DNA from: Microbacterium sp. EYE_78
Lineage (GTDB): Bacteria > Actinomycetota > Actinomycetes > Actinomycetales > Microbacteriaceae
NCBI RefSeq assembly: GCF_023149035.1
Contig: NZ_JAHXMY010000002.1
Span: 682,001 to 746,000, forward strand
Direction: 5' to 3'
DNA length: 64,000 nt
Positions within the stretch are counted from its first letter, which is position 1. The number at the start of each line of letters is the position of its first letter. The notes beneath the pieces are model-generated. The model worked only from the letters and a program-made list of their open reading frames with translations. It had not been told where the DNA came from and made no database searches. Below, in pieces: positions 18,090 to 22,093 of this stretch. Position numbers and translations under genes: made by a program.

Positions 18090-18225
18090 CTCTGCTCCTT
18101 CACTCGAGGGGATTCCCGCACGCTATTCGAGCGCGCGACGCACGCGGCCCGCCTTGCGCACGGACTCGAGCCGCGCTAGCCGGGCCGTGGATCGTATGCA
18201 TAAGAATGCGATGCAGACTGGCGGC

Positions 18226-18774
18226 ATGCCTGCAGTCCCCATCCTCTCCGCCGTCCGTGCGACCCTGGCGGGGATGGCCCTCGCCGTGCTCGCCACCCTC
18301 GCGCTGGCGTCCCCCGCCGCCGCACACGACGAGCTGGTCGGCAGCACCCCCGGGTCGGGCCAGAAACTCGACGCGGCGCCGACCGAGGTCGTCCTGACCT
18401 ACTCCGCGGCGATCGAGACCCAGGGGGCGATCGTCGCGGTGCTGGATGCCGACGGCCGCGACTGGACGGCGGGGGAGCACGTGATCGACACGAACACGCT
18501 GACGGTCCTGCTCGCCGAAGGGCTTCCCGACGCCGGCTACGTCGTGGAGTGGCGTGTGGTCTCGAGCGACGGCCACCCCATCAGCGGGTCGGTCCCGTTC
18601 AGGATCGGCGACGGCGCACCCGTCGATCCTTCCGACGTGGTCCCCGCCGCGGACACGGACACGTCTGAGGCGTCGGCGCTCCCCGTCGTCGTGGCGGCGG
18701 TCGTCGTGGCGGCGGCGGCGATCGTCATCGGCGTCCTCGTCGTGCGCCGCCGCACGGCGCAGCGCCGAGGGTAG
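18226..18774 (+). CDS. CopC-domain copper-resistance-like protein, membrane-anchored
   Basis: Extracytoplasmic copper-binding protein of the CopC/YcnJ-N type. From the ATG at 18226 it has 182 residues: signal peptide ending ASPAAA, then a mature N-terminus starting with His (HDELVGSTPGSGQKL) as in CopC metal sites. Beta-rich segments including WRVVSSDGHPISGSVPF follow, with a C-terminal membrane helix about residues 152-174 and basic tail RRRTAQRRG. In-frame ATGs at 18196 and 18211 are also possible starts. No copD or copper ATPase gene is adjacent. Confidence 0.85.
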   Translation: MPAVPILSAVRATLAGMALAVLATLALASPAAAHDELVGSTPGSGQKLDAAPTEVVLTYSAAIETQGAIVAVLDADGRDWTAGEHVIDTNTLTVLLAEGLPDAGYVVEWRVVSSDGHPISGSVPFRIGDGAPVDPSDVVPAADTDTSEASALPVVVAAVVVAAAAIVIGVLVVRRRTAQRRG

Positions 18775-19792: not shown

Positions 19793-20341
19793 TCAGACCG
19801 TCTGCCCGGAGTGGGGGCCTTCGGCGATCTCCTCGACCACCTTGGCGTTGAAGGCCGGCAGATCGTCGGGGGTGCGGCTCGACACGAGCCCTTGGTCGAC
19901 GACGACCTCCGCGTCCTGCCAGACCGCGCCCGCATTGACGAGATCGGTCCGGAGGCTCGGGTAGCTGGTCAGGGTGCGTCCGCCGAGGACGTCGGCCTCA
20001 GCCAGGATCCATGCGGCGTGGCAGATCGCGCCGACCGGCTTGTGCTGCGCGAAGAAGTCCCGGGTGAAGCGGACCGCTGCCTCGTCGACCCGCAGGTCGT
20101 CGGCGTTCACCACGCCGCCGGGCAGCACCAGCGCGTCGAAGTCCGCCGCATCCGCGGTGTCCGTGGTGAGCTCGACCGGCTGTTCGTGTCCGTTCTTGCC
20201 GGTGATCGCACCGCTCGCCGGCGCGACCATCACGGCCGTCGCACCGGCATCCGTGACCGCCTGCCACGGCGAGGTCAGTTCACTGTCCTCAAATCCATCC
20301 GTCGCGAGGAACGCGACGCGCTTTCCGCTGAGTGTGCTCAT
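19793..20341 (-). CDS. DJ-1/PfpI family protein
   Basis: 182 residues of the type 1 glutamine-amidotransferase-like fold. Glu18 (GFEDSEL), nucleophile Cys107 followed by His108 (GAICHAAW) and the LVLPGG segment match PfpI/YhbO proteins. These are reported as proteases, chaperones or glyoxal-damage enzymes; the sequence does not separate these roles. The start fits a leaderless -10 box on the minus strand. Confidence 0.92.
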   Translation of the reverse strand: MSTLSGKRVAFLATDGFEDSELTSPWQAVTDAGATAVMVAPASGAITGKNGHEQPVELTTDTADAADFDALVLPGGVVNADDLRVDEAAVRFTRDFFAQHKPVGAICHAAWILAEADVLGGRTLTSYPSLRTDLVNAGAVWQDAEVVVDQGLVSSRTPDDLPAFNAKVVEEIAEGPHSGQTV

Positions 20342-20354: not shown

Positions 20355-20414
20355 GGTCCGTCGCAGAGCGGGTCGCAGGCCCTTGACCCCGGCGCCGGGC
20401 GGCGTTAGCGGGCG

Positions 20415-20420
20415 TAGCAT
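20415..20420 (+). promoter_or_regulatory. -10 box TAGCAT of the cysteine-rich peptide gene
   Basis: TAGCAT ends 6 bases before the ATG at 20427, again a leaderless layout. Confidence 0.55.
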
Positions 20421-20426
20421 GGTGCG

Positions 20427-20549
20427 ATGTCCACTTCGAACCTCCCGACCCCGACCCTGCAGCCGGTCCCCACCGACGATAAGAACCTCATCGAGGTCGT
20501 CGACGAGGGCGCGTCCTGCTGCGGCGGCGGGTGCTGCAGCACCAACTGA
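20427..20549 (+). CDS. 40-residue cysteine-rich peptide ending in CCGGGCC
   Basis: Not recognised as a named family. The product has 40 residues: a polar, proline- and threonine-rich N-terminal half, an acidic middle (LIEVVDEGAS) and a C-terminal CCGGGCCSTN with four cysteines in seven residues. There is no signal peptide or membrane segment. It has its own start-proximal -10 box and its own terminator at 20564-20591, both of which support a real gene. The cysteine cluster suggests thiol-based metal or metalloid binding in the cytosol, but that is inference. Confidence 0.65.
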   Translation: MSTSNLPTPTLQPVPTDDKNLIEVVDEGASCCGGGCCSTN

Positions 20550-20563
20550 CGCGCTGAGACGGA

Positions 20564-20591
20564 ACGACCCGCTCCTGACGGAGCGGGTCGT
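20564..20591. terminator. Hairpin terminator
   Basis: A 12-bp perfect stem with a 4-base loop sits 15 bases after the cysteine-rich peptide gene and 18 bases before the convergent stop of the MFS gene. Confidence 0.7.
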
Positions 20592-20608: not shown

Positions 20609-22093
20609 TCAGTGGCCCACCGGGGCTCCCTGCGGCGCGTCGGCAGGTTTGCGGATGAGGAACGCCCCCACCAGCAGGGGCAGGGAGATCACCGCGGCGA
20701 TGAGGAAAGCGGAGTGGGTGCCGGCACCGCCTGCCTCCGCCTCCCCGGCGCCCGCTGCGAGGGTCGAGGCGGTGACCGACGTCATGACGGTGACCATCAC
20801 CGCGATGCCCGCGGCACCCGCCACCTGCTGGACGGTGCTGACGATCGCCGATCCGTACGACATGAACCGCGGCTCGAGCGACCCCAGGGCAGCCGTGAAG
20901 AGCGGGGTGAACGAGACGGCGAGGCCCAGCGAGAGCACGGTCTGCGCCGCGACGATCGCCCAGATCTCGGTGTTCTCGTCGAAGGTCGTGAGGACCCACA
21001 GCATCCCGACGGCCACCGCCGCACCAGGGACGAGCAGGACGCGGGTGCCGCGGGCGTCGTAGATGCGGCCGACGATCGGCCCGGCGAGGCCCATGAGCAG
21101 CGCACCGGGCAGCACGGCGAGTCCCGCTTCGCTGGCCGTCATCCCCAGGACGTCCTGCATGTAGAGGGGGAGGACGATGATCGTGCCGAAGAACGCCATC
21201 GACAGGAGCGTCATCTGCAGGATCGCCAGCGTGAAGTTGCGGCCCCGGAAGACCCGCAGATCGAGGAGGGGGCGGTCGGTGCGCTGCAGGAGCAGCTGAC
21301 GCCAGACGAAGAGGGCGAGGCCTGCGACGCCGATCACGAGCGAGACGATCAGCGGAAGGGTGGATGCCGGGGCCTCCGACCCGCCGTCGCCGCCGTGCGC
21401 TGCGGCCCCGCCGATCTGGCTCAGCCCGTAGACGAGCCCACCGAAGCCGAACGCCGACAGCACAACAGAGAGGATGTCGATCGGCGCGCGGGTGGTCTCG
21501 CCGAGGTTCGCGATCCATCGCGCGCCGACGCCGAGCGAGATCAGCGCGATGGGGACCACGGCCGCGAAGGTCCATCGCCAGTTCGCCGCCTCGCTGATGA
21601 CGCCCGACATGACCGGGCCGATGGCCGGCGCCAGCGAGATGACGATCGAGACGCGGCCCATCATGCGGCCGCGCGCGTGCGCAGGTACGACGGTCATGAG
21701 GGTCGTCATCAGGAGCGGCATCATGATCGCGGTGCCGGATGCCTGCACGACGCGCGCCGTCAGCAGCACGGGGAACGCGGGGGCCAGGGATGCGGTGATC
21801 GTGCCGAGCGAGAACAGCGACATCGCCGCCACGAACACCTGACGTGTCGTGAAGCGACGCAGCAGGAAGCCGGTCGTGGGGATGACGACGGCCATCGTCA
21901 GCATGAACGCGGTGGTGAGCCACTGCGCGTCGATGTCGCTGATGCCGAAGTCATCGGAGACGTGCGGGATCGCGACGCCCATCGTCGTCTCGTTGAGGAT
22001 CGCCACGAACGCGGCGGCGAGCAGCAGCCAGACGACGCGGCTCTCCTCCGGGCGCAGCAGCGGCGCGGCGGTGGCGCGTGCGGTATCGGTCAT
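20609..22093 (-). CDS. MFS transporter, DHA2 (14-helix) drug exporter type
   Basis: Proton-driven exporter of the inner membrane. 494 residues from the ATG at 22093, with CAGGAG upstream. Many hydrophobic helices are visible; motif C-like TARVVQASGTAIMMP, motif A-like LLRRFTTRQVF and the EmrB-type DAQWLTTAFMLTMAV are seen in order. The substrate is not shown. The 140-base gap to the divergent ABC exporter holds the promoters of both; no adjacent TetR or MarR regulator is seen. Confidence 0.92.
   Translation of the reverse strand: MTDTARATAAPLLRPEESRVVWLLLAAAFVAILNETTMGVAIPHVSDDFGISDIDAQWLTTAFMLTMAVVIPTTGFLLRRFTTRQVFVAAMSLFSLGTITASLAPAFPVLLTARVVQASGTAIMMPLLMTTLMTVVPAHARGRMMGRVSIVISLAPAIGPVMSGVISEAANWRWTFAAVVPIALISLGVGARWIANLGETTRAPIDILSVVLSAFGFGGLVYGLSQIGGAAAHGGDGGSEAPASTLPLIVSLVIGVAGLALFVWRQLLLQRTDRPLLDLRVFRGRNFTLAILQMTLLSMAFFGTIIVLPLYMQDVLGMTASEAGLAVLPGALLMGLAGPIVGRIYDARGTRVLLVPGAAVAVGMLWVLTTFDENTEIWAIVAAQTVLSLGLAVSFTPLFTAALGSLEPRFMSYGSAIVSTVQQVAGAAGIAVMVTVMTSVTASTLAAGAGEAEAGGAGTHSAFLIAAVISLPLLVGAFLIRKPADAPQGAPVGH

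Follow-up and report, generated by a model that had tools for sequence, protein, structure and literature searches.

The window analysed here, a 64,000-nt stretch of the Microbacterium sp. EYE_78 genome, contains at positions 20427-20549 of the plus strand an open reading frame encoding a mini-protein of 40 amino acids, MSTSNLPTPTLQPVPTDDKNLIEVVDEGASCCGGGCCSTN. The N-terminal part of the peptide is short and acidic, and its C-terminus, rich in Cys, Gly and Ser, ends in S-C31-C32-G-G-G-C36-C37, that is, four cysteines within seven residues forming two overlapping CX4C motifs. A -10 box, TAGCAT (20415-20420, plus strand), is located 6 nt 5' of the ATG, as noted in the first-pass annotation of this DNA, and the -35 region contains a CGGCGCC sequence (20390-20396, plus strand; -25 to -19 relative to the 5' base of the -10 box). 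Downstream from the stop codon lies a GC-rich hairpin (20564-20591, plus strand; z = -2.64) with a 12-bp stem and a 4-nt loop. The hairpin that had been described after the gene is therefore present, but it has no T run, and a terminator scan reported no terminator on this strand of the window. The two adjacent genes are those previously named, and both are on the minus strand: a divergent DJ-1/PfpI gene (19793-20341; PF01965, 1.1e-50) and a convergent gene for a DHA2/EmrB-type MFS exporter (20609-22093; TIGR00711, 2.4e-92). A gene for a CopC-domain protein (18154-18774, plus strand; PF04234, 6.6e-22) is found ~1.7 kb to the left of the peptide gene. At E <= 1, the window peptide is matched by no family in Pfam or NCBIfam. 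Searches of the same databases with 34 relatives returned isolated single rows only (best 0.017), with no metal-binding family among them, and a search of the PDB with a peptide profile gave weak rows only (best 0.8).

The frame is conserved in the genus. A search with the window peptide matched 117 of 198 Microbacterium genomes at E <= 1, the best matches being mostly full-length alignments, and M1, P9, P13, C31, C32, G33 and C37 are invariant across the 30 best genus copies aligned. These 30 copies, which include that of the window, were found by sequence only, and all of them carry TANNNT 6 or 7 nt before the ATG. The same spacing was seen in 48 of 49 genus regions retrieved, which come largely from the same genomes; the 49th region, L095, ended at a contig edge, and its copy has the same layout. 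As a control for chance, 1,947,060 nt of flanking sequence (both strands) contained 41 short leaderless-like ORFs, of which a single one had a C-terminal dithiol, and this was the copy of L095 itself. A set of 94 copies, to which the window copy does not belong, was gathered by the -10 criterion, so that the independent evidence for leaderlessness comes from the copies found by sequence. The earlier description of a leaderless gene for a small, soluble protein is supported. The net charge of the 94 copies ranges from -1 to -10. In their -35 region there is a tendency to CGGNSCC at a fixed position, which the CGGCGCC of the window fits; GGNSCC is in exact register in 18 of the 94, and the tendency may be partly due to shared ancestry. 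A G stands three bases ahead of the -10 box in 82 of these 94 copies, and the -35 element differs from the TTGACA box.

Among 48 aligned copies, pN was lower than pS in 97% of 1,128 pairs, with a median dN/dS of 0.45 for the 1,055 pairs that fell within the usable range, indicating that the frame is kept as a protein. C31 and C37 are present in all 48 copies, C32 in 47 and C36 in just 22, and the fourth cysteine is thus not essential. What does not vary is CX4C, found behind a hydrophobic anchor in the window copy and in 97 of 97 Microbacterium relatives; it occurs in 27% of shuffled segments of the same composition. Two cysteines are present in 25 of these relatives, three in 46 and four in 26, and the tails read, for example, CCGGGCC, CCGGGSC, CSGGVC, CADGVC or CVDGYC. 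Conservation of the frame and of the cysteines in close relatives, on which the first-pass annotation had made its interpretation depend, is therefore found, whereas the CCGG.CC ending that it had proposed as a search pattern is not a conserved feature. The tetracysteine can be discarded as the key feature of the peptide.

The distribution of the gene was underestimated by profile searches. A first profile matched 34 of 398 genomes in a family search at E <= 0.1, with three matches in the genus besides the window genome, and an early profile used phylum-wide matched 4 of 396, two in the genus and the remainder weak. A 48-row profile matched 155 of 335 genus genomes at E <= 0.05; 19 of the 20 weak matches opened were true copies (leaderless, short, with a Cys tail and close to the same exporter), L147 being the exception. 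Using the exporter gene as an anchor, the peptide was located in 29 of 30 profile-negative genomes opened: a strict scan gave 25 leaderless dithiol ORFs, L206 has a long tail, and three more came from 13-kb regions. The sole genome of the 30 in which no peptide was found is G589. These 30 genomes were not a random sample, since 20 were listed as unmatched by the 48-row profile and the other 10 were unmatched in the window-peptide search and also not among the matches of the 48-row profile. The 29 copies rule out that half of the genus lacks the peptide; profile searches detect about half of the copies, and the gene, which sits at one chromosomal spot, is nearly universal in the Microbacterium genomes opened. 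The 38 named relatives obtained with the closest profile comprise 35 from Microbacterium, 2 from Microbacteriaceae and 1 labelled Stenotrophomonas. The latter label belongs to a 4.6-kb contig (L188, JACEFY010000211.1) assigned to Stenotrophomonas maltophilia, which carries a Microbacterium-type peptide gene and is probably a contamination of that assembly.

The genes recurring beside the peptide gene in Microbacterium encode the exporter, an ABC protein and a glycosyltransferase. Of 68 genus loci, 65 have the exporter gene and 66 the ABC gene on the right-hand side, and the first gene on the left is variable. DJ-1 is the first recognised gene on the left in 13 of the 68 loci and on the right in 7, and a codirectional gene for a 170-aa membrane protein is the first recognised gene downstream in 20. 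In three loci (L072, L119 and L120), the peptide is kept and no MFS gene occurs within the stretch read. The first-pass annotation had drawn attention to DJ-1 and the exporter as members of stress-linked families, but a functional link is borne out for neither of them: a DJ-1 partnership is ruled out by the inconstancy of this neighbour, and an obligatory partnership with the exporter, its usual but inconstant neighbour, by the three loci without an MFS gene. We also observed that, in many Microbacterium, the conserved 170-aa membrane protein is encoded codirectionally between the peptide and the exporter (L088, L089 and similar loci); an alternative insert at this place, likewise in many Microbacterium, is a convergent gene for an AhpD/CMD-like protein, named by eye.

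Relatives outside the genus gave a different picture of the genomic context. A profile built from divergent Microbacterium copies only, and blind to frnE (profile A4), matched 67 of 319 family genomes and 32 of 78 genera at E <= 0.02. Outside the genus, 62 genomes had a match; we read the loci of 40 of them, and frnE, called by tblastn, is directly upstream on the same strand in 36 of these 40 loci, from 21 of 24 genera. This arrangement does not hold for g52, for two loci of g75 or for a match in g74 that is probably due to chance. Locus L294 looks like a chance match. FrnE is a cytoplasmic oxidoreductase of the DsbA family, and the upstream FrnE matches the Deinococcus radiodurans protein DrFrnE (5cnw, 1.4e-54) and SCO1869 of Streptomyces coelicolor (3gl5). 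Where a start was recognised, the frnE-linked relatives are mostly Shine-Dalgarno-led. Their core consists of LxMVG or NLLG followed by CX4C; the separate peptide of genus g2, for instance, reads SLTMLGQADASACEGDAC. In two genera, we noticed a comparable stretch at the N-terminus of CopZ-like heavy-metal proteins, NLLG..GGCCGGG in g75 (L278, L283) and GGCCGGGCC in g50 (L103, L104, L110). These CopZ-like proteins carry a GMTCGHC motif, and they give the impression of a copper chaperone to which the same dithiol module has been added.

In other FrnE proteins, a similar segment is part of the enzyme itself. At the aligned C-terminus, the DrFrnE chain carries PLTMLGQDAPAEGC and the SCO1869 chain PLKLIDDGGAEACGPDGCAV, with anchor and CX4C, and the fused tail of a member of family f8 (L393) reads PTLQPVGGDGEVCGPDGCPV, where the window peptide has PTLQPV as its counterpart. 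Among 144 FrnE loci surveyed by script, a fused tail (CX3-6C at the C-terminal end of FrnE) is present in 14, a separate CX4C ORF downstream of frnE in 60, neither in 70 and both in none. After reading, the separate ORFs number 59, as the ORF of L390 is due to chance, and the FrnE reads of L392 and L395 proved to be broken. Of the 70 loci with neither, 37 are from Microbacterium, where the peptide is at another locus, and L299 has a peptide that was missed by the script. The separate ORF starts in an NTGA overlap, one base before the frnE stop, in 45 of 59 cases, a count from which the overlap start of L111 was excluded as an artefact. CX4C is present in 59 of 59 frnE-linked ORFs and in 13 of 14 fused tails. 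Such a separate ORF, overlapping the end of frnE or immediately following it, occurs in many Microbacteriaceae genera, and a few further actinomycete families have it in some of their genomes. FrnE without a tail is frequent in distant homologues (29 of 40 by script, including the broken read L395 and L384, which has a CX5C tail). Moreover, three FrnE close to split forms, L338 (family f8) and L349 and L354 (family f104), have no recognised tail or adjacent peptide.

The similarity between separate peptides and fused tails was evaluated with a profile of 45 frnE-linked peptides. It placed 9 of 15 fused FrnE, and 0 of 127 non-fused FrnE, above the best of 750 shuffled tails; here and in the tree below, the 15 fused proteins include L376, whose tail shows one cysteine, the script count being 14. 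The linked peptides resemble the fused FrnE tail in the proposed docking segment. Linked and Microbacterium peptides align with an hhalign probability of 95.5 (E 1.5e-8). By itself, the Microbacterium profile gives a weak match, with 2 of the 15 fused tails scoring higher than the best shuffle, and the connection runs via the linked peptides. A tree of 70 FrnE was built from 30 of the 59 split, 15 of the 29 'neither' and 10 of the 37 Microbacterium rows together with the fused ones, L299 and L338 being left out. A branch with a support of 99/96 parts the split and Microbacterium rows from the fused rows: one side holds 30 split, 10 Microbacterium and 2 'neither' rows, and the other all 15 rows scored as fused and 13 'neither' rows. 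L349 and L354 fall in the split clade. The Microbacterium rows form one group (100/98) nested inside the split side. Given this branch and this nesting, a single separation event, followed by relocation in Microbacterium, would be the simplest reading of a tree whose root is not fixed.

In the window genome, frnE lies at G000:C2:1164353-1165024, ~418 kb past the window; its product matches 5cnw at 6.9e-61, and the CPWC active-site motif can be read in the protein. FrnE was matched in 47 of 48 Microbacterium genomes, which had been chosen to cover the peptide types. A C-terminal dithiol is missing from all 37 Microbacterium FrnE read; 35 of them contain two cysteines and 2 contain three, and two cysteines were counted in 30 of 30 when a shorter stretch was considered. 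The only one of the 48 genomes without FrnE, G589, is also the only one of them without a found peptide, which makes a single co-absence. G608 keeps the peptide and has only a distant FrnE (37% identity). In another Microbacterium genome, G043, FrnE was not detected at E <= 1e-30, and profile searches returned no peptide; judged from these searches, this is a possible second joint loss.

The promoter regions of the two genes differ. GGAAT-N-GTT is described as the promoter motif of SigR in Streptomyces (PMC2375139) and of SigH in Corynebacterium (PMC10012870). It is present upstream of frnE in 35 of 36 Microbacterium loci, mostly close to the start codon, e.g. in that of the window genome (L302, C2 near 1165024), and in 52 of 60 split loci. 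For fused and other loci, the numbers are 5 of 14 and 5 of 33, respectively, three of the latter five (L299, L338 and L404) being Microbacterium or near split forms; the background is 62 matches in 1.46 Mb. A SigR-like promoter is absent from all 94 Microbacterium peptide genes examined (0/94). In this genus, the peptide gene lies apart from frnE and has its own leaderless promoter of SigA-like type. Since the gene is unlinked and none of the 94 copies has a SigR-like promoter, the peptide and frnE are not visibly co-regulated.

The explanation that we favour, with a probability of roughly 0.7, is that the mini-protein corresponds to the C-terminal CX4C redox tail of FrnE, encoded by a separate gene and working in trans. 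A review that covers DrFrnE (PMC8945050) describes how one molecule places its tail at the active site of a second, with a Cys244-Cys22 disulfide forming between the two, and it reports that the thioredoxin-reductase-driven activity drops on loss of the tail cysteines; a role of the tail in regeneration is proposed by the authors. According to the same review, FrnE proteins without a tail exist, and their regeneration mechanism is suggested to differ (PMC8945050). By analogy, because the DrFrnE tail already acts between molecules, such a tail could work as a separate protein. The hydrophobic stretch of the peptide (NLI/NLL, LxMVG) would dock it on FrnE, and its CX4C dithiol would then reach the CPWC active site and exchange a disulfide with it. 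The peptide might in turn pass electrons to, or receive them from, a reductase, which could be thioredoxin reductase, thioredoxin or mycothiol. In this way, FrnE would be regenerated via the tail peptide after reducing or shuffling disulfides, chiefly in cells under disulfide stress, a condition expected to activate the SigR/SigH-type promoter of frnE. In Microbacterium, the tail gene would have been relocated to a site unlinked to frnE, where a leaderless, SigA-like promoter drives it separately. We infer the docking, the electron transfer and the service of the Microbacterium peptide to an unlinked FrnE from these comparisons. Covalent attachment to FrnE is not a feature of the peptide, which is encoded by an ORF of its own in 59 loci and, in Microbacterium, at a distance from frnE; consequently, we regard it as working like a FrnE tail and do not file it as a member of that class.

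Other functions have to be weighed against that of a FrnE tail. The initial suggestion for the peptide was a metal- or metalloid-binding tag or a modified peptide. As a small cytoplasmic binder, i.e. a micro-metallothionein or a copper-transfer tag, it would buffer Cu(I), Zn or As by its thiols. The four cysteines within seven residues of the window copy and the CopC-domain gene at 18154-18774 are in keeping with such a role, and metal binding keeps some weight because the CopZ-like proteins of g75 and g50 carry a similar N-terminal module. However, the number of ligands varies from two to four cysteines among the 97 relatives, all of which keep CX4C, the neighbour elsewhere is frnE in 36 of 40 loci, and no metal-binding family of Pfam or NCBIfam was matched. 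Because the tetracysteine varies and the gene is accompanied elsewhere by that of FrnE, the metal or metalloid tag is the second-best explanation, possible but rather unlikely. We attach a still smaller likelihood to a free dithiol carrier that would serve several thioredoxin-fold enzymes, the relocated Microbacterium copy having other partners than FrnE. The unlinked locus with its own SigA-like promoter and the presence of the peptide in G608 beside a distant FrnE would agree with this, but both genes occur in 47 of the 48 genomes, the distant FrnE of G608 being counted, and neither in the last one, and the segment by which the linked peptides would dock is similar to its counterpart in the fused FrnE tail.

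If the peptide were ribosomally synthesised and then modified after translation, with a leader and a Cys-rich core, this would account for the short acidic N-terminal part and for the C-terminus rich in Cys, Gly and Ser. The window genome, which is 99.96% complete, contains no match to YcaO, MbnB-type MNIO or SPASM, and the recurrent neighbours are the exporter, ABC and glycosyltransferase genes. The suggestion of a modified peptide is thus not supported: a RiPP precursor is ruled out for these three maturase classes and is in general the least probable of all the readings considered here. In mycobacteria, leaderless polycysteine ORFs act as Cys attenuators, and the window gene, being leaderless and Cys-rich, could similarly encode a leader peptide that senses cysteine and controls an operon downstream by attenuation; a codirectional gene, that of the 170-aa membrane protein, does come first downstream in 20 of the 68 genus loci. 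In the window, this role is ruled out by the convergent orientation of the next gene, and the constraint on the protein sequence (pN < pS in nearly all pairs) also speaks against it; we consider attenuation very improbable.

A more specific form of the FrnE-tail reading, to which we would give slightly less than an even chance, is that the detached tail is a diffusible dithiol microprotein, cut loose once in actinomycetes, and that its supply was uncoupled from that of the enzyme in Microbacterium. The tail would then come from the leaderless SigA-like gene, and FrnE would be made only under disulfide stress. The ratio of tail to enzyme, or a sharing of the tail with other thioredoxin-fold proteins, might thereby set the direction and the rate of disulfide exchange in the cytoplasm. 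In the open-access literature, we found no paper on a detached FrnE tail. The tail-less FrnE are a loose end to which our data relate, since a large actinomycete group apparently supplies the tail in trans and has not lost it. A function can also be offered for a family of microproteins that is too short and evolves too fast for homology searches; where profiles see half of the copies, the mini-gene is recognisable by its position, its promoter spacing and one motif. As two small soluble proteins are involved, the trans-acting redox relay becomes directly testable.

Several known systems share part of these properties. The mycobacterial metallothionein MymT and the CopZ-type chaperones are likewise small Cys-rich cytoplasmic proteins, but the window peptide has no family match, and the number of cysteines is not conserved among the peptides. 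In class Ia ribonucleotide reductase, a flexible C-terminal CX4C dithiol of NrdA re-reduces the active site; the role is similar to that proposed here, whereas the enzyme is unrelated and the tail is fused. The tail of SCO1869 (PDB 3gl5) from Streptomyces coelicolor also consists of an anchor and CX4C, but it is fused; other fused actinomycete FrnE are placed opposite the split forms in the FrnE tree, SCO1869 not being among the tree rows. A further comparison is with the DrFrnE tail of Deinococcus radiodurans (PDB 5cnw and others), which also has a CX4C dithiol behind a hydrophobic anchor and belongs to the same enzyme family as the proposed partner in the window genome. While the DrFrnE tail is fused to its enzyme, the putative Microbacterium counterpart is a separate protein, unlinked and separately transcribed, in a genus whose own FrnE is tail-less.
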